A stretch of 12,026 nt of DNA from Desulfurococcales archaeon (GTDB lineage: Archaea; Thermoproteota; Thermoprotei_A; Sulfolobales; NBVN01), in NCBI GenBank assembly GCA_027061705.1, contig JAMOVB010000168.1, forward strand, positions 1-12,026, read 5' to 3'. Both the position numbers and the translations under genes were made by a program. Shown one piece after another: positions 1-12,026 of this stretch. Below the pieces are notes generated by a model, which did not search any database, was not told the DNA's origin, and saw only the letters and a program-made list of their open reading frames with translations. Positions within the stretch are counted from its first letter, which is position 1. Each line of letters begins with the position of its first letter.

Positions 1-1385
1 TCACCGCCTCCTGCCGGCTTTCCTTCCTCACCGCCGCCCCCCTCAAGCACCAGCTCGAAATTATCGCGGACGGGCTTGTACACCTTCTCGTAGAACTTCC
101 TCGGATCTGTAAGCACGTGCTTAGGGAATCTGCTTAAGTATTTTAAAGCGGCCTCCCAAGCCTTCTCGTACGGTACGACGGCGGATATCTTACTAGCTAT
201 CTGCCTATCATAGTCCTCCGGCCTCTGCTCCTGCCCGCCCATAATGAAGTACCCTGAGGGCCCGACAAACGCCTCCTCGCCGGCGACCTCAACAAGCTTC
301 CCACCACCGCCTCCCTGCTTGGGCGGACGCCTTACACCCACAACCCTCCTGGCCGCTACAGCCTGGCCCCTCCGCTTCGCCCACGCGTAGAATATAGCTC
401 TGTTAAGGCCGAATGACTTAGCCTTATCTAAGTCGCCGTAGAGTAGGTAGTATCTAGCGGCTTGAAGGAGCCCCATCACTTGAAACCTACCCACGCCGCC
501 TCCACGCCTAAGCAAGGCCGGCCTACGTCTAGCGCCGCTAACCTCAGCTCGCTGCGTAGGCATGGTTTCAACCCTGCCGTGCTTGCCTCCCCTACCCACC
601 TCCCTAACAGCCTTCCTAACCAGCTCGTCAAGCTCGCCGTCATCGTAGATGCCCCAGCAGCTCTGATGTTTGAACGAGTCCGGCCTAACCCAATCAAGCG
701 TGAATGACGCTATGTAGTCCGGCTTGAAGCATACTGCGACTCTGTCTAGCTCCCTATGGAGGGATAGTGGGGCCGTGAAGACCCTCTTCAAATCCACAAG
801 GTTTTCGATCTTAACCTCACCGCCACCCCTCCTCCCCGCACTTTTGAGCCTTTCTGAATACTTCCTAAGCACGTACTCAATCACAGCATACGCCGCGTCA
901 ACAGGTGTAATCATCAAGTCCCTTAAGCAATCCTCGCTCACCCCATTCTCATTTAACCTAACGTGAACACCCTCACCGCTCCAGAGGAGGTAGACACTTC
1001 TCTCCACACCTTCCGATTCAAGTATCTTAACAAGCTCGGCAGCAACCTCTAAGGCGGCCCTCCAATCCCCTTTAACTAAGTCTATATCCCAGAAGGGCGT
1101 GTATTTAATCACGTTACCTACGTTCTCAACATCCTCCTTCCTCCTTAGGCTGGACCATATCGACGCCGTGACGTAGATAGTCCTAACGCCGATGCCTAAG
1201 TGCCTCCTCACCTTAACCGTGACGTTCGTGGGGCTGGAGAACGTCAGCGGCGCGCTCCCCTCATACCTTACGAACACCCTACCACTGCCGAACCTGCCTT
1301 CAAGGGCCGCCCACCTCCCCCTAGAATATCTGAATATCTCGCTCCTCACATCCTCCCTCGAGTAGTGCTTAAGCACGTCAACCAC
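1..1385 (-). CDS. PriS-like primase-polymerase (AEP superfamily) with C-terminal extension, partial
   Basis: The reading frame is open on the minus strand from a GTG at 1385 to the left edge (461 codons seen; the 3' end is outside). Residues about 60-215 carry the archaeal/eukaryotic primase small-subunit landmarks: FWDID (98-102, catalytic Asp100 and Asp102), SGEGVHV (136-142), and VDLKRV followed by PLSLH (197-210), where Asp198 fits the third metal-binding Asp and His210 the nucleotide-binding His. The family makes RNA or DNA primers and some members act in repair. Unlike replicative PriS (about 330 aa) it shows no Cys4 zinc knuckle after the DxD motif and it extends for 220 or more residues, with a Gly-rich linker near 357-363 and a helical-looking region at 303-345. 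It is therefore more likely a paralogue than the replicative subunit. The start is chosen for GGTGAG 5-6 nt upstream; an in-frame GTG at 1445 is the alternative. Substrate and partners are unknown. Confidence 0.75.
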   Translation of the reverse strand, partial: MVDVLKHYSREDVRSEIFRYSRGRWAALEGRFGSGRVFVRYEGSAPLTFSSPTNVTVKVRRHLGIGVRTIYVTASIWSSLRRKEDVENVGNVIKYTPFWDIDLVKGDWRAALEVAAELVKILESEGVERSVYLLWSGEGVHVRLNENGVSEDCLRDLMITPVDAAYAVIEYVLRKYSERLKSAGRRGGGEVKIENLVDLKRVFTAPLSLHRELDRVAVCFKPDYIASFTLDWVRPDSFKHQSCWGIYDDGELDELVRKAVREVGRGGKHGRVETMPTQRAEVSGARRRPALLRRGGGVGRFQVMGLLQAARYYLLYGDLDKAKSFGLNRAIFYAWAKRRGQAVAARRVVGVRRPPKQGGGGGKLVEVAGEEAFVGPSGYFIMGGQEQRPEDYDRQIASKISAVVPYEKAWEAALKYLSRFPKHVLTDPRKFYEKVYKPVRDNFELVLEGGGGEEGKPAGGG

Positions 1386-1460
1386 TAAACCCTCACCTAA
1401 CGTTAAGGGTTTAGGACGCGGCGCAAAAGATAAGGGGACAGGCACTTCGCTGGGAAAGAG

Positions 1461-1541: not shown

Positions 1542-2441
1542 TTGAAGGGCGTGGCTGCAGGGGTGAGGTCCTCAGTCGAGAAGGCCCTCAAGTCGGTGAC
1601 GGACGATGCCGTTAACCTAGTGAGCGGGTTCGTAAGGGATTCCAGGAAATTAATACTCACGCACGCCGGGCCGTACACGTCCCCAGCAAGATACGCTTCA
1701 CTAATACTCAACTCGCTATCCAACGTCGAATGCCTTTGGATGCACCCGCAGGACCTAATGTACTACCTAGCGCCGTACGAGGAGGGTGAGGCCGCGTCCG
1801 TGCTGATAACATCTCCTGACGAGGGCATCAACACTCTGGCGATGCTTCTAGATCAACTCACCTGGACAGGTCACTCCATAGCTTTAGTAACCCAGCATGA
1901 ACTGCCTGAGATCATAGCCTATAAGATCCCGGATACTGCCGCCTACGTAAGCCTAGACACTAGCGAGTGGTTGCTGGCGGTGCATATTCTCCTAGCTAGG
2001 GCGGCTGCTAAGGCATGTAGGGAGGGGTTAAGGCATGATCGAATAGTTCGCGAGGTATCCGACCTCACATCGGTCGTTGACGACCTCATAGAGGAGTACA
2101 GCGATGATTTGGAGAGGGTTGCTGACTTCATTAGGGAGCCTGTAGTGATAACGTCCTCACCAACCATGTGGGGGGTTGCGGAATCGATAGCTTACTCACG
2201 CGTGGCGAGGAAGGGGAGGTATTTAGTGGAGCCGGAGGCTGTCTCCCAAGTAGCGGCTTACGTCGGGAGGGTACTGCTAATAAGCACCGACGTTGAGGAG
2301 TACTCAATGAGGTTAGTTAAGTCCCTCCAAATGACGTCATCGGCAAGCGTTATCGAGCTTAAGCTACATACAGATCCGCTAACAGCGCCGATATACGGCT
2401 TGATGCTCGCTAAAGCCCTGGAGCTGGCGGGGAGCGCGTAA
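1542..2441 (+). CDS. Double SIS-domain (sugar isomerase fold) protein
   Basis: This 299-aa protein resembles the sugar-phosphate-binding half of GlmS-type and AgaS-type SIS proteins. A first SIS lobe is visible at about residues 25-150: a beta strand and Gly turn at LILTHAGPYTS (37-47), then SVLITSPDEG (86-95) with the Ser/Thr-rich phosphate-binding pattern, then SIALVTQ (112-118). A second lobe follows at about 197-297, with VVITSSPTMWGVAESIA (201-217), VLLISTD (244-250) and DPLTAPIYGLMLAKALE near the C-terminus, a usual end for double-SIS proteins. There is no N-terminal glutaminase domain, so it is not a full GlmS. The lobes are divergent and I cannot assign a substrate. The start is TTG, supported by GGTGA six bases upstream. 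Its stop TAA shares its last base with the ATG of the SDR gene, so the pair is probably translated together. Confidence 0.7.
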   Translation: MKGVAAGVRSSVEKALKSVTDDAVNLVSGFVRDSRKLILTHAGPYTSPARYASLILNSLSNVECLWMHPQDLMYYLAPYEEGEAASVLITSPDEGINTLAMLLDQLTWTGHSIALVTQHELPEIIAYKIPDTAAYVSLDTSEWLLAVHILLARAAAKACREGLRHDRIVREVSDLTSVVDDLIEEYSDDLERVADFIREPVVITSSPTMWGVAESIAYSRVARKGRYLVEPEAVSQVAAYVGRVLLISTDVEEYSMRLVKSLQMTSSASVIELKLHTDPLTAPIYGLMLAKALELAGSA

Positions 2442-4086: not shown

Positions 4087-4662
4087 GTGGAGATTAAACC
4101 CATAATCAAGATCGAGAACATCGTAGCAACAGTCACGCTCGATCAGAGGCTCGATCTAAATATAATAGCTAGGTCAGTCCCCAACATAGAGTATGACCCT
4201 GAGGAATTCCCCGGCCTAATACTCAGGCTTGAGAGCCCCAGGCTAACTGCACTGATATTCAACTCGGGCAAGATGGTTGTGACGGGAGCGAAGAGCACGC
4301 AGATGTTGATTAAGGGCTTCAAGCACATCATGAGGATATTCGTGAGGCATGGCATAATAATCGTGGGTAAGCCGAAGATCCAGATACAGAACATAGTGGC
4401 GTCCGCTAACCTGGGCGTTGAGATAGATTTAGAGAAGGCGGCATACCTACTCCCCAACACCATGTACGAGCCTGAGCAGTTCCCCGGCCTCATACACAGG
4501 ATGAGAGACCCGAAGGTAGTCCTCCTAATATTCAGCAGCGGTAAGATGGTTATAACCGGCGCTAAGAGTGAGGAGGACGTCAAGAGAGCCGTGTACACAA
4601 TATACGAGAGGCTTAAGGAACTCGGATGCATTAGGCAGTCTCCCACAGCACCGCCCTGGTAA
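4087..4662 (+). CDS. tbp: TATA-box-binding protein (TBP)
   Basis: This 191-aa protein consists of two direct repeats that build the saddle-shaped TBP core. Repeat 1 (about 7-95) contains [19 protein letters not shown] and [11 protein letters not shown]. Repeat 2 (about 97-183) contains [21 protein letters not shown] and [11 protein letters not shown]. The DNA-kinking Phe pairs are present: FPG in each repeat, and the Phe of ALIF/LLIF before SGK. It recognises promoter TATA boxes and recruits TFB and RNA polymerase. The first repeat is the more diverged one ([16 protein letters not shown]). The short tail (RQSPTAPPW) lacks the acidic C-terminus of many archaeal TBPs. The start is GTG, as no ATG is in frame nearby and repeat 1 begins at once. 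It has its own TATA box and is followed by a 176-bp spacer. Confidence 0.97.
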
Positions 4663-5690: not shown

Positions 5691-8600
5691 ATGAATAAGA
5701 AAGTACTTGTACCACTTCTAGTACTCGTAATGATTGCGTTCTCAATAATACCGGCAATGGCGATACACGTATCAGCGCAGGCTAAGGGCAAGCCCGTAAC
5801 GGAATTCGTCTGGAAGGTTAGCCTAAACAGGCAGGCAGCGATACTAAGCGTAGCCAGTGGAAAAGTCGACGTGTTCGCCTGGTCATCGCCGCTACCTGTC
5901 TACCAGGGGCTGAACCCGGCAATCCTAGCTAAGCTTAAGTTGATCAGGTCAGCATCAACGCACATCAGCATCGCGATAAACCCGGCGCAGAACGTTATCG
6001 ACCCTAACGCCCCCGGTCAGGTCAAGCTGTACAAGAAGTCCTTCAAGGGTCAGATAATACCTGGGCTAATATACTGGAACCCGCCGCACGGGAACTACAT
6101 TAACATAACCGACATAAAGAACTATGCTAACCTGCACTTCAACCCGTTCGCCCTGTGGCAGGTAAGGTTCGCCCTCAACTTCCTGATAAACAGGCAGCTG
6201 ATAGTGGACACCATCTTCGGCGGTAGCGCCGCCCCAGCACTAGGCTGCATCACGCCATCCCACCCCGCCTACCCGAAGCTTAAGTTCATCTACGATAAGC
6301 TAGGGCTGACCCCTCAGGGCAACGTGCAGAAGTCTATAAAGCTATTCCTAGCGGCTATGAAGGCAGCTAACCAGACGCTGAAGAAGTACCACATGATGGT
6401 CGTACTGAAGAAGGACTCCTCATCACCGACTGGGAAGTTCTGGTACTTCGTCAAGCCTAACGGCAAGAGCGAGCCGATAACCATATACTTCTGCATTAGA
6501 ATCGAGGATCAGAGGCTCTACATAGGTAGGCAGATAGCAACCTGGCTTGAGAAGTACTGGAACCTTAAGGTTGTGAGGCTGGAGAGAAGCAGATCCGTAG
6601 TCACTCCAGTAATCTACGGCAAGAACCTAGTCGACACCTCAACTAGGTTGGGCAACGTAGTATGGAGCCTGTACACGGAAGGCTGGGTCTCCATGGGTGA
6701 GGAGCCACCGGTCTATGCGAGGTATGACGTCGCATTCTTCTACGGGCCACTACAGGGTTACGGCCCCAACACCTACAACACGCAGTGGTGGTACTGGTGG
6801 AACGCCACTATCTATAAGTTAGCTTATGACCTGAACTACGGAATCTTCACTCAGAAGACCGTTAACAAGCTGTGGAAGGAGATTGAGCAGTGCCTCTACG
6901 ACGGCGTGCAGCAGTCACCTAGAGTCTTCATAACTGAGGACTGGGAGTTCGCGCCTGTAAACAGGCAGAACGTTGTTGAGCTAGTGCCTGGAAGGGTTAC
7001 CGGTATCTGGTCACCTTGGACGCTAAGGACGCTTGAGACTACTTCAGGTAAGGCCACGATAATGGAGTACTCAGCACAGGGCGCGCTCTTCATGAGCGCT
7101 TGGAACCCTGTGCTCGGCTTCACTGGAGTCTATAGCATGCTAATGTACAACCTGATTGCCGACCCTGCGTTCAACCCGTCGCCCATCAACGGAATGCCGG
7201 TGCCTGTGAGGGTTAAGGGCTTCAAGCTGTTCTATAACGTCACCGTGCCCAACACGGCGTACGTATTCAACTCGTCAATGAAGGCTAAGAAGTGGGTTGT
7301 AACGCCTTACGCTGGCAAGAAGGCCAACGAACTAATACTGAACTTCGTGATGGGTAAGTGGCATGACGGCAGCCCAATAACTATGGCGGACGTACTGTAC
7401 TGGCTAGGCATGATTTGGGACTGGTCCCACGACGACTCAACAAAGCATGTCAAGGATCCGTACTACGATCCCGAGATAGCTGAGTACGACGGCCCGGTAA
7501 TTCAGCAGATAAAGGGAGTTCAGGTGCTGAACAGCACTGCAATAGCTGTCTACACTACGTACAATGACGTGTACCCGTCACTGGTAGCCAACTACCTAGC
7601 CCCAATGATATGGCCTCCAATGCCTTGGTACGTGCTTGCTACTGCCGAGTATATGATAGTGCACGGTGTCAAGCCATCCGGTAGCACAGTACCTTACGGC
7701 TGGTGTACCAGGGAAGGTACCTCCGTAGGTATAAGCTTCATTAACCCGACGCACGTAAAGGACGTTGTTAAGTACATGCAGAAGTTAATGAGTGAGGGCT
7801 ACATACCGGACTACATTAAGACGTATCCGGGACTGTCAAAGTACGCCAGCTACTCGGTTAAGGAGTACCAGAACGGCATTAACTTCGCTAAGGAGTACGG
7901 CAACGTTATGATAAGCAACGGCCCGTTCTATGTCTACTCCTACAACGTCAACTCAAGGACGTTAGTGATGAAGTGGTTCAAGGACTACCCGTTCCCGCCT
8001 GGCTACTGGAACACTAAGTTCGAGCTGTACGAGCCCGCCATAGTGGGCTTCAAGCCATCCCCGCCAACCTTGATAGTTGCTGGTAAGTCCTACAGCTGGG
8101 ACGTGCTGGTTAAGCAGTACAGGATACTGCCGAGCTACGCTGTTCAGAACCCGACTCAGGTTAGAATGTATGTAAAGGTGTATCAGGTAACCTCCAACGG
8201 CACTAAGTACCTGGCAACACTGCCTGAGAGTGATGTGAAGCTAGTAAAGCCTGGTGTTGTGTCGGTTAACCTGACGTCCGACTTCACCTCCAAGTACATG
8301 AGCAAGCCTGGCGCCTACATGATACAGATAATACTTGGCACGCCTCAGTCAGGCATTACCGTGATTAAGACTATAGAGCTGACGAGCCTAGGCACCATAT
8401 CCCCGACCACTACGACGAGCACGACGACCACTACAACTAAGACTACGACCACTACCGTTGTTAAGACCACCACTACCGTGAAGCCGACGACAACCACCAT
8501 AGTCAGGACCACGACATCCAAGGGCACCGTGACCATAGCAACCACTAAGGTAGTGACCTCGGTCTACACGACCACCACGACCGCCATAAAGCCGACGACC

Positions 8601-8759
8601 TCAACCGTCACGACAACGGTCTACAAGACGACCACCGTCGCCACGCCGTCACCGACTACAGTCCACGTCACCACAACTAACTGGGGCGCCGTAGCGGCTG
8701 CTGCAGTCATACTCTTCATCATAGGACTGATCATCGGCTACTTCGCCAAGAGAAGGTAA
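5691..8759 (+). CDS. ABC transporter family 5 substrate-binding protein, rotated domain order, membrane anchored
   Basis: This 1022-aa surface protein would bind the solute (family 5 takes peptides, some sugars, nickel) and hand it to the permeases encoded downstream. It has a signal peptide (about 1-31, ending AMAIHVSAQA), a large body (35-785), a small beta-rich segment (785-900), a Thr-rich stalk (904-996) and a C-terminal helix (998-1018) ending AKRR, the usual anchor of archaeal di/oligopeptide binders. Family landmarks are present but rotated. The segment normally past mid-protein comes first: AILSVASGKVDVFAW (50-64), LWQVRFALNFLINR (155-168), GGSAAPA (177-183). The normally N-terminal part comes later: GVYSMLMYNLI (479-489), GKWHDGSPITMADV (555-568), then NGPFYVYSY (743-751). 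Many NxS/T sites suggest glycosylation. The ATG follows GAGGTGA. Usual family length is 500-600 aa. Confidence 0.9.
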   Translation: MNKKVLVPLLVLVMIAFSIIPAMAIHVSAQAKGKPVTEFVWKVSLNRQAAILSVASGKVDVFAWSSPLPVYQGLNPAILAKLKLIRSASTHISIAINPAQNVIDPNAPGQVKLYKKSFKGQIIPGLIYWNPPHGNYINITDIKNYANLHFNPFALWQVRFALNFLINRQLIVDTIFGGSAAPALGCITPSHPAYPKLKFIYDKLGLTPQGNVQKSIKLFLAAMKAANQTLKKYHMMVVLKKDSSSPTGKFWYFVKPNGKSEPITIYFCIRIEDQRLYIGRQIATWLEKYWNLKVVRLERSRSVVTPVIYGKNLVDTSTRLGNVVWSLYTEGWVSMGEEPPVYARYDVAFFYGPLQGYGPNTYNTQWWYWWNATIYKLAYDLNYGIFTQKTVNKLWKEIEQCLYDGVQQSPRVFITEDWEFAPVNRQNVVELVPGRVTGIWSPWTLRTLETTSGKATIMEYSAQGALFMSAWNPVLGFTGVYSMLMYNLIADPAFNPSPINGMPVPVRVKGFKLFYNVTVPNTAYVFNSSMKAKKWVVTPYAGKKANELILNFVMGKWHDGSPITMADVLYWLGMIWDWSHDDSTKHVKDPYYDPEIAEYDGPVIQQIKGVQVLNSTAIAVYTTYNDVYPSLVANYLAPMIWPPMPWYVLATAEYMIVHGVKPSGSTVPYGWCTREGTSVGISFINPTHVKDVVKYMQKLMSEGYIPDYIKTYPGLSKYASYSVKEYQNGINFAKEYGNVMISNGPFYVYSYNVNSRTLVMKWFKDYPFPPGYWNTKFELYEPAIVGFKPSPPTLIVAGKSYSWDVLVKQYRILPSYAVQNPTQVRMYVKVYQVTSNGTKYLATLPESDVKLVKPGVVSVNLTSDFTSKYMSKPGAYMIQIILGTPQSGITVIKTIELTSLGTISPTTTTSTTTTTTKTTTTTVVKTTTTVKPTTTTIVRTTTSKGTVTIATTKVVTSVYTTTTTAIKPTTSTVTTTVYKTTTVATPSPTTVHVTTTNWGAVAAAAVILFIIGLIIGYFAKRR
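8400..8680 (+). repeat. Low-complexity Thr-codon tract encoding the stalk
   Basis: About 280 bp made largely of ACC, ACG and ACT codons encode runs of Thr (for example TTTTTT) broken by short KP, VVK and IV units at residues 904-996. It is an irregular, not strictly periodic, repeat. In the protein it should form an extended, probably O-glycosylated spacer that lifts the binding domain from the membrane. Its antisense gives a spurious Val-rich open frame. Confidence 0.8.
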
Positions 8760-8955: not shown

Positions 8956-10053
8956 TTGGCTGGTGGAGTGAGTACCGCCCTCCTGAAAGCTGCTGCCAAT
9001 GCTATAGTTGTGTTGATTGTTGCCGCCTTCATCATATCGGCCGTGTTCGTTGAGCAAGGGCAGCAGCAGTTGAAAGCAACCGCGATGTCGATGCTGCAAC
9101 AACGAATAAGGGCTCTGAAGATGAAGGGAGTGCAGATAACGCCCCAGCTACTCAATAAAATAAACATGACGATATATAGGGATCTAGGGCTCTTAGAGCC
9201 TGTCTGGCTAAGGATACTGAGGTTCACTTTCTGGTCGATAACATTTAACTTCCAGATGTTCCCAGCTAAGGTACACTACGCAGGCGCTTCCGGAGATACA
9301 GCTAAAGATGTAGTTCTGGCGGCACTCCCTAACACCGTAATGCTATTCACTACGGCTACTGTGATATGTATCTTTATCGGGATCTTCCTAGGGCTTCAGG
9401 CGGCGCGGAAGGCAGGCGGCTTAGCCGATAGAGCTATCTCAACCGTCGCTATGGTGACGACGTCCCTGCCGATGTGGTGGGTCGGCATGCTGATGCTTCT
9501 AGTGTTCTCGTTCGAACTAGGCATAGCGCCGGCGGTGTGCATCAACGTGTACGGGGATCTAGCGCAGCTTGCCAGACACGTGCACGGGATCCTCTACTAC
9601 ATATACTCAATACCGATATGGCTTCACTACATGTGGTTGCCTGTGCTTACGATAGTCCTAGTATCCTTCGGTGGGTGGGCCTATACGATCAGGAACGTGG
9701 TAATATCGGTCATGACCGAGGACTTCGTGAACGTGGCTAGGGCTAAGGGGCTTCCTGAGAGAACCGTGTTGTATAAGCACGTCCTGAGAACGGCAAGTCC
9801 GCCTATAGTGACTATGAGTGCGTTGAGTCTCGTGGCGTCATTAGGTGGCGCTATAATTACTGAGACCGTCTTCTCATGGCCCGGCATGGGCAGGACCTAC
9901 TGGGTAGCGTTGCAGGCTGGAGATACTGGCGTGCTAATAGCGCTGACGTACGTTACGGTGTTCCTCTTCGTAGTTATAATTACGTTCCTGGACTTCATTT
10001 ATGCCCTGCTAGACCCGAGAGTCAGGACAGGATTGGCAGGAGGTGGTAGGTAA
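8956..10053 (+). CDS. ABC transporter permease, DppB/OppB-like
   Basis: This 365-aa inner-membrane permease has the DppB layout: helix 1 at about 12-32, an outside segment to about 118 containing the family region LGLLEPVWLRILRF (77-90), then five helices from about 122 to 352. The binding-protein-dependent transport signature (EAA loop) is clear at 255-285, with the pattern VARAKGLPERTVLYKHVLRTA, the cytoplasmic loop that docks on the ATPase. ETVFSWPGMGR (303-313) is a typical family 5 permease motif. It is slightly longer than the usual 300-340 aa because of the first outside loop. The start is TTG, supported by GAGGGAT five bases before and by helix 1 following at once. The last base of its stop is the first base of the ATG of the next permease, so the two are probably translated in fixed ratio. 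Confidence 0.93.
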   Translation: MAGGVSTALLKAAANAIVVLIVAAFIISAVFVEQGQQQLKATAMSMLQQRIRALKMKGVQITPQLLNKINMTIYRDLGLLEPVWLRILRFTFWSITFNFQMFPAKVHYAGASGDTAKDVVLAALPNTVMLFTTATVICIFIGIFLGLQAARKAGGLADRAISTVAMVTTSLPMWWVGMLMLLVFSFELGIAPAVCINVYGDLAQLARHVHGILYYIYSIPIWLHYMWLPVLTIVLVSFGGWAYTIRNVVISVMTEDFVNVARAKGLPERTVLYKHVLRTASPPIVTMSALSLVASLGGAIITETVFSWPGMGRTYWVALQAGDTGVLIALTYVTVFLFVVIITFLDFIYALLDPRVRTGLAGGGR

Positions 10054-11771
10054 TGTCCTCAATAGAACGTATTAGATGGTTCTTAGGAGAACTAAGAAGA
10101 GTAAAAAGCGGTTTGGCAGGATTTATCCTGCTATTCACCTTAATAGGGTTAACGTTGGCATTCCCGCTACTTGCAAATCCTCAGGACATAGCGAATTGGA
10201 GCGGCCACGCTAAATACTGGGAGGAGAAGATGTTGCCTAGGCTGGCGCCGCCGGCCTGGATAAACTACGTATCTCCTGTGAAGTACCCCGTTACACGGGA
10301 TCTTCATAAGGTGTACGTATCGAAACCACTAGTGCTTAACATGTCGAATAATAAGGACCTACTCAAGTACTTGAAACTAATGAATCCAAAAATAGCTAAG
10401 GCTGTAGAGAAGTTACCGAAGACACAGAGAGCGGCAATACTGAACGCCCTCAGAAAGAACCTGAATTTCAAGTACCTCGTGTTCAAGGAGGTTACCGTGG
10501 TGTATAACTTCAAGGCGGATGTGCCGCCAAAGAACTTAATAACGATACTGAAGCTGGGGCCTATATACATGACGAAAGGTTTGATACAGGGTATAGATAT
10601 CCTATGGACGAGGCCTGACGGCATAACGATCTCCTTGCTTCCAGGAGGCTCTACGAACCTTACAAATCCATTCAACCTTAACAACTACGCACAGTTAAAT
10701 AGCGGTAGCGTGCTAAACGCGCTGAATATCGAGCCGCAGAAGATTTACCTAAAGAATGGGCAAGTAGCGCTCTACATACCTCCAGGGACTACTGTGAGGT
10801 TTTCGCTATACGACTACATCGCATCACTACTAAATCAGAATAACCCGGCTCTCATAAGCCAGGTGTTCGGACCCCTACTAAGCAGGCTTAACATAAGTAG
10901 CGTATCAAGCATATACGCGCCGCCAATGCTCTTCATAATGTCGAAGCTCGAAAAAGGAATGATAAACGGCACAGCGCCAGTACTTAAGGGGACTTACAAG
11001 CTAACCTTTGCTATGTTGATAAAGGTACCTAAGAAGCCTGCAAATATAGGTATGCCGCAATTAACCGTTACCAGAGCTAGAGTTCTAGGTGTTTACGGCA
11101 TCATAGGAACTGACGTTCACGGCAGAGACCTGTGGCCAGCCCTGCTTTACGGGCTTAGATGGGCGCTAATAGTCGGAATCTCTGTTGCCGTAATATCGAC
11201 GCTAATAGGAGTGTTCTACGGAGTGATTTCAGGATACCTGGGAGGCTACGCCGACACCATAATGACTAGGATAGCGCAGATAGTTTACTCGCTGCCCGTA
11301 CTGCCTCTGCTGATTATGTTGTCGTACTTCTTCGGCCCCAGCATCTGGCACGTTATCATAATCTTGATAGCATTCGGATGGTCTGGACTAGTGTTCACAG
11401 TGAGGAGCATGGTCCTGCAGATTAAGGAGAATTTGTATGTAGAGGCGGCTAGGGCCATAGGGGCAAGCTCGTGGAGGATAATATTCAAGCACGTGTTCCC
11501 GCAGGTACTGCCGTACACGTTCGCTTCAATGGCGCTCTCGGTACCCGGAGCTATCCTGGCTGAGGCCGGCCTAAGCTATCTGGGCCTGGGCGACCCCAAC
11601 ATAGTGACTTGGGGTAAGATACTGCACGACGCACACGCCAACGGAGCCGTGCTGAAGGGCGCGTGGTGGTGGGTAATACCTCCGGGTCTAGGAATAGCTA
11701 TAGTTGGGATGACCTTCGTCTTCATAGGGTATGCGCTGGACAGGATACTCAACCCGAGGCTAATAAGGTGA
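10053..11771 (+). CDS. ABC transporter permease, DppC/OppC-like, with large extracytoplasmic insertion
   Basis: The second channel subunit is 572 aa, about twice the usual 280-310 aa. Helix 1 lies at about 20-40. The conserved block that normally follows within about 50 residues, GTDVHGRDL, is at 352-360, so about 270 extra residues (73-346) sit outside the membrane. This insert is rich in beta-like segments (IYLKNGQVALYIPPGTTVRF, 231-250) and has NxS/T sites (for example 202-204, 280-282). From 360 on it is a standard permease: five helices, EAA loop EAARAIGASSWRIIFKHVFP (464-483), and AEAGLSYLGLG (503-513), the usual DppC ending. The insert may contact the unusual binding protein. It overlaps the DppB-like gene by one base, and the ATPase gene starts 10 bp after its stop. 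Confidence 0.92.
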   Translation: MSSIERIRWFLGELRRVKSGLAGFILLFTLIGLTLAFPLLANPQDIANWSGHAKYWEEKMLPRLAPPAWINYVSPVKYPVTRDLHKVYVSKPLVLNMSNNKDLLKYLKLMNPKIAKAVEKLPKTQRAAILNALRKNLNFKYLVFKEVTVVYNFKADVPPKNLITILKLGPIYMTKGLIQGIDILWTRPDGITISLLPGGSTNLTNPFNLNNYAQLNSGSVLNALNIEPQKIYLKNGQVALYIPPGTTVRFSLYDYIASLLNQNNPALISQVFGPLLSRLNISSVSSIYAPPMLFIMSKLEKGMINGTAPVLKGTYKLTFAMLIKVPKKPANIGMPQLTVTRARVLGVYGIIGTDVHGRDLWPALLYGLRWALIVGISVAVISTLIGVFYGVISGYLGGYADTIMTRIAQIVYSLPVLPLLIMLSYFFGPSIWHVIIILIAFGWSGLVFTVRSMVLQIKENLYVEAARAIGASSWRIIFKHVFPQVLPYTFASMALSVPGAILAEAGLSYLGLGDPNIVTWGKILHDAHANGAVLKGAWWWVIPPGLGIAIVGMTFVFIGYALDRILNPRLIR

Positions 11772-11781
11772 GGTGGTGGGT

Positions 11782-12026
11782 ATGGCGCTCCTGCTGGAGG
11801 TTAAGAACCTGAAAACCTACTACTACACCCTCAGAGGGGTTGTTAGGGCTGTTGACGACGTCAGCTTCACGCTAAACAGGGGAGAGGTTCTAGGCATAGC
11901 TGGGGAGTCGGGATGCGGTAAGTCAACACTTGCGTGGACGCTTCTAGGCCTAGTACCGCCGCCGGGCAGGATAGCTGGCGGTGTGGTCAGGCTTGATGGT
12001 ATGGAGATAAGTAAGATGAGCGAGAG
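11782..12026 (+). CDS. ABC transporter ATP-binding protein, DppD/OppD-like, partial
   Basis: The first 81 codons of an ATPase that would power the transporter are present; the rest lies beyond the right edge. The Walker A (P-loop) GESGCGKST is at about residues 44-52, in the wording typical of DppD/OppD and DppF proteins, preceded by VVRAVDDVSFTLNRGEVLGIAG. YYYTLRGVVRAVDDVSF fits the A-loop region that stacks on adenine. LLGLVPPPGRIAGGVVRLDG resembles the DppD side of the pair (DppD usually reads LLP.PGRI..G.I.FDG), so a DppF-like partner gene probably follows. The ATG follows GGTGAGGTGG. Walker B, signature and His switch lie outside the window. Confidence 0.9.
   Translation, partial: MALLLEVKNLKTYYYTLRGVVRAVDDVSFTLNRGEVLGIAGESGCGKSTLAWTLLGLVPPPGRIAGGVVRLDGMEISKMSE

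Follow-up and report, generated by a model that had tools for sequence, protein, structure and literature searches.

A family 5 substrate-binding protein with circularly permuted order, widespread in an archaeal phylum and probably rearranged again in one family

Natural circular permutations are known from other protein families, in which the same parts occur with rotated ends and the old ends are joined by a short linker; they are usually single old events. The closest described relative of the protein studied here is 7fi3_A ('ABC-type dipeptide/oligopeptide transport system'), which we take to be a Thermococcus OppA with bound peptide. Both of its halves match our protein over their length, but they stand in the order A-B, whereas ours stand in the order B-A. 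It is the nearest solved relative of a permuted protein from an ammonia oxidiser, too. The ordinary family 5 substrate-binding proteins (SBPs) of the same genomes belong to the same Pfam family (SBP_bac_5) and, unlike our protein, align with its model as a single, almost full-length match (positions 2-366 of 368 in locus L124); they are canonical in order and shorter, with frames of 521-619 aa in 29 of 30 loci and 802 aa in the remaining one. Separately, one canonical-order SBP_bac_5 match (G280:C28:80180-81346) belongs to a reading frame of 2064 aa, roughly fourfold the normal length. We found no description of circular permutation in such binding proteins in the open-access library searched.

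The window, by which we mean the whole stretch of 12,026 nucleotides that was analysed, is part of a 902 kb assembly that is 52% complete and in which a whole-genome search found a single ORF matching SBP_bac_5. This ORF (P0001) occupies positions 5691-8759 of the plus strand and encodes 1022 aa. We write the canonical order as A-B1-B2; the order B1-B2-A is called type I, and B2-A-B1 type II. The parts of P0001 are as follows.

5691..5780, plus strand: signal peptide or hydrophobic N-terminus, residues 1-30 (hydropathy peak from residue 5; signal peptide end placed by eye)
5796..6074, plus strand: segment B1, residues ~36-128, SGEVDI-like, the new N-terminal part of the binding domain (7fi3 332-389 on query 46-103; B1 profile)
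6123..7034, plus strand: segment B2, residues ~145-448, from the RVRQAL-like part to the old C-terminus (Pfam model 209-285; 7fi3 368-590 and 666-721; B2 profile)
7035..7070, plus strand: 12-residue junction ETTSGKATIMEY linking the former C-terminal part to the former N-terminal part (stretch left uncovered by the B2 and A profile matches)
7071..8015, plus strand: segment A, residues ~461-775, the old N-terminal half with HDG..DV and GPF (7fi3 10-309 on query 458-769; Pfam model 28-140; A profile)
8019..8387, plus strand: Ig-like beta-sandwich spacer, residues ~777-899
8388..8660, plus strand: Thr-rich linker, residues ~900-990 (53% Thr over residues 896-990)
8679..8738, plus strand: C-terminal membrane helix, residues ~997-1016 (hydropathy peak 2.68 at residues 1000-1019)

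The initial annotation had described the SBP_bac_5 landmarks as inverted in 5691-8759, and all of them lie where it placed them: AILSVASGKVDVFAW at residues 50-64, QVRFALNFLINR at 157-168 and HPAY at 191-194 are followed by YSMLMYNLI at 481-489, WHDGSPITMADV at 557-568 and, at 744-746, a motif that had been given as GPY but reads GPF. PF00496 (SBP_bac_5) matches P0001 with 41 bits, above its curated cut-off (32.4), and the match is split into two stretches whose model coordinates are inverted rather than colinear: in the whole-genome search the first covers model positions 209-285 (E 4.1e-8) and the second, which alone falls below the cut-off, positions 28-140 (E 1.4e-4). The only strong solved relative, 7fi3_A (E 1.8e-50 over the whole sequence), aligns in the same inverted fashion, with query 46-448 on chain 332-721 preceding query 458-769 on chain 10-309. 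Its B part aligns in pieces (query 46-103, 111-353 and 392-448 on chain 332-389, 368-590 and 666-721), of which those at query 46-103 and 392-448 are weak when taken alone (6.1 and 7.1 bits); chain 591-665 is covered by a profile search only, in which a profile of 17 permuted relatives matches chain 320-721 in one stretch on profile 37-388 (E 2.1e-133). The inversion of the landmarks is thus confirmed well beyond chance. The canonical parts are present once each in rotated order, with the old C- and N-terminal parts fused at residues 449-460. The new ends correspond to 7fi3 chain positions 309-332, between GPY and SGEVDI, which is where the break had been predicted; in P0001 itself it falls between GPF...YW and SGKVDV. 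Judged from these alignments, P0001 is a permuted relative of SBP_bac_5 and not a canonical member, a clean circular permutation, as had been proposed, with a 12-residue junction. The B2-A junction has this length in 24 of 84 type I proteins and in both type II proteins.

A tandem pair of separate binding domains, or an assembly artefact of the contig, would be another explanation of the inverted order, and the window is indeed a short contig of an incomplete assembly. However, each half is present a single time and the two add up to one 7fi3-like chain, which rules out a tandem two-domain protein, and the same order is found in 84 proteins of 83 genomes, some of which are single-contig; we give this explanation almost no credence. 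Searches for intermediates of the tandem duplication that the initial annotation had put forward as a possible origin were negative: no ORF with a repeated half was present among the ORFs of the loci mapped for segments, and none of six neighbourhoods of 16-19 kb held a second SBP match beside the one that each contains.

The C-terminal helix recurs in 79 of 88 relatives of at least 780 residues, some of the other nine being truncated loci. In the proteins of family f8 and the type I proteins of families f5 and f7 that were compared, the Ig-like part is absent and the trap passes directly into the Thr-rich linker. AlphaFold2 produced no global fold for residues 31-900 of P0001, either alone (mean pLDDT 34.4) or with two relatives (35.9); the Ig-like spacer is the best-modelled part of this poor model, and a VIA-align comparison, with a middling Z, bears on the C-terminal Ig-like part only. 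P0001 would be exported and held to the membrane by its C-terminal helix, with the spacer and the linker setting the trap off the membrane. The permuted chain should adopt the two-lobed trap fold of its canonical counterpart, and this trap should be of the Opp type because all parts of the canonical chain are present.

The gene is followed by two permease genes, both matching PF00528 (BPD_transp_1), an arrangement of the Opp/Dpp-type operon.

8956..10053, plus strand: OppB/NikB-type permease (BPD_transp_1, E 5.4e-40; best NCBIfam rows nickel_nikB and Opp2B, under their cut-offs)
10053..11771, plus strand: OppC-type permease with a large N-terminal insert (BPD_transp_1, E 7.3e-29; best NCBIfam row Opp4C, under its cut-off)
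11782..12026, plus strand: start of a putative ATPase gene, 81 residues to the contig end, containing GESGCGKST in its translation

We take GESGCGKST to be a Walker A motif. Two ORFs whose size would fit ATPases (size being the basis of this judgement) follow the permeases in six related loci. The trap would pass its substrate, most probably oligopeptides, to the permeases encoded next door, and anchored oligopeptide capture for an Opp-type importer is the likely role; the proposed peptide substrate follows from the kinship to 7fi3 and from the Opp-type permeases. Elsewhere in the window, a gene for TATA-binding protein (4087-4662, plus strand; PF00352, two repeats, E 2.5e-66) lies two genes upstream of the transporter, and the ORFs at 3-1445 (minus strand) and 1542-2441 (plus strand), of 481 and 299 residues, have no Pfam match at E 0.001.

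The permuted order is not special to P0001. A genome search with the profile (alignment A1) gave matches at E <= 1e-3 in 211 of the 229 genomes of the class, and at E <= 1e-20 in 182 of 300 genomes of the phylum, with none in the other 118; most of the matches listed are single matches spanning the permuted order. Among 90 distinct complete proteins mapped for segments A, B1 and B2, a sample that follows search rank and chosen loci so that its counts are not frequencies, 84 are type I (including B2-A proteins whose B1 is too diverged for a match), four are canonical and two are type II; proteins with less than 80% of segment A or B2 and proteins with identical B2 were left out. The 84 type I proteins are spread over 83 genomes in 26 families, while the long-type canonical and the type II proteins come from f8 only. 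Archaeal AmoA was found in five of the 12 genomes tested for it, and all five carry a type I protein. Against plasmids, tblastn gave no match with P0001 and 12 partial matches, covering at most 36% of the query, with a second permuted protein. The survey of homologues that the initial annotation had suggested thus shows that the permutation extends widely across the phylum, which implies that it is old. Staphylothermus marinus is a peptide fermenter with two annotated peptide ABC transporters, according to PMC2678158. As a separate observation on the type I proteins of family f6 (L015, L016 and L093; genomes G058 and G066), four f6 rows among the matches listed have one in-frame stop (TAA) inside the match, near the C-terminal stalk.

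Family f8 adds two orders, the canonical one and a third, to the single rotated order (B1-B2-A) that had first been recognised. Of the eight f8 genomes analysed, four have a canonical gene, two have a type II gene, one has a tail fragment only and one has no match. The type II cut lies ~100 residues beyond the type I cut. Alignments of representatives by blastp are colinear within a topology and rotated between topologies, with identities among long-type representatives of roughly 33-63%; the type II proteins are 52-54% identical to the type I proteins L043, L050 and L009, colinear over ~655 residues, and keep the 12-residue B2-A junction of their type I relatives. The two ends of type II are neighbouring residues in the canonical L039 (aligned by eye), so little was lost at the cut. 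Whatever their order, the genes occupy the same position: SBP, permease, permease and two more ORFs are common to the canonical loci L168, L171 and L172, the type II loci L169 and L170 and the type I locus L173.

The direction of change was approached through trees. Removal of rows at least 80% alike in B2 left 65 long-type rows, one of them 7fi3, and 24 ordinary rows. Of the latter the first eight were used; represented by B2 only, these eight form a separate clade. In the resulting 73-row A+B2 tree, f8 is a clade (100/100) under successive type I branches, and a mixture-model tree of 38 rows, hand-picked from the 73, agrees in nesting f8 inside type I. The AU test rejects a topology in which all type I proteins form a single clade that excludes f8 (p=0.0044, without 7fi3), also under the mixture model (p=0.0034); with 7fi3 included p falls to 5.7e-9, a value that mixes the placement of f8 with that of 7fi3. 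Separate trees of A and B2 both nest f8, with one deep branch of support 4 in the former and several weak branches (54-67) in the latter. The permease tree, which holds 24 of the 27 loci given, recovers f8 at 100/100 and joins it to six type I operons of f5 and f7 at 84/77 (key branches 83/78 and 84/77); here f8 is nested only when G007, the one outgroup row remaining, serves as the root, because in the unrooted tree the type I rows make up one side of a branch. Since f8 is nested among permuted proteins and the tree that sets type I apart is rejected, its canonical order is best read, and most simply, as a reversion.

One might instead suppose that f8 kept the ancestral canonical order and that several neighbouring lineages became type I independently, each through the same cut. 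The position of the canonical 7fi3 among permuted rows speaks for this, as does the root of the long-type family, which is poorly fixed, its base being an open fork in both the A+B2 and the mixture-model tree. Yet the type I branches below f8 are successive and supported, the rejection of a separate type I clade means that an ancestral f8 would need several independent identical cuts, and type II shares its 12-residue junction with type I; we consider this history unlikely. Still less likely, in our judgement, is that the f8 canonical genes were transferred from a canonical lineage elsewhere and replaced a permuted gene. Our genome searches covered this phylum, which leaves room for a donor in another, but the canonical and type II genes join each other at 100/100, both join the type I genes of f5 and f7, and the permeases encoded beside them show the same affinities.

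The first permutation is harder to place. In the A+B2 tree 7fi3 sits on a long branch among the permuted rows, and placing it outside them is just not rejected (p=0.0585). Taken at face value, its position would require another reversion or more than one permutation, while a single early permutation would be compatible with the data. We tentatively suggest, at somewhat less than even confidence, that the gene has come full circle: A-B1-B2 would have become B1-B2-A across the phylum, and in f8 this would have become B2-A-B1 and then A-B1-B2. On this account each step would carry the leading segment to the far end of the chain and leave the signal peptide, the stalk and the place in the operon unchanged, and the B2-A-B1 intermediate would survive in two genomes. 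The A-to-B1 junction is alike in type II and f8 canonical proteins (by eye), and the B1-to-B2 loop is longer in the four f8 canonical proteins (31-33 residues) than in 15 type I proteins (15-28), a hint that the chain may have been re-joined where type II is cut. Further hints that would fit are the type I junction kept by type II and the joining of the f8 canonical rows as one clade in the best seven-segment operon tree (62/63), two alternatives to which are not rejected (p=0.468 and 0.403). Against the stepwise account, L047, which is type I, has as many as 28 residues in its B1-to-B2 loop. A strand before SSxGALFM in the f8 canonical proteins was considered as a remnant of the type I junction and dropped, 7fi3 having a similar strand.

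The best explanation of these data, which we hold to be very probable, is a surface-anchored family 5 SBP in the permuted order B1-B2-A, the product of a widespread old permutation, whose gene was rearranged again in f8, where some members are canonical once more and others B2-A-B1. What sets this case apart from other natural permutations is that one gene, at the same operon position, shows two different cuts and what looks like a return to the starting order. A permuted SBP family, a probable reversion and a third cut are probably new here. The permutation shows why family models match such proteins weakly and in pieces, and it places a permuted transporter protein across many families of a single archaeal phylum, including some that oxidise ammonia. 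Together, f8 and type I provide natural proteins cut at three places beside the same kind of permease neighbours. With these one can ask which loops are able to accommodate new termini, by what steps a permutation comes about or is undone, and whether delivery to the permease depends on the site at which the membrane tether is attached.
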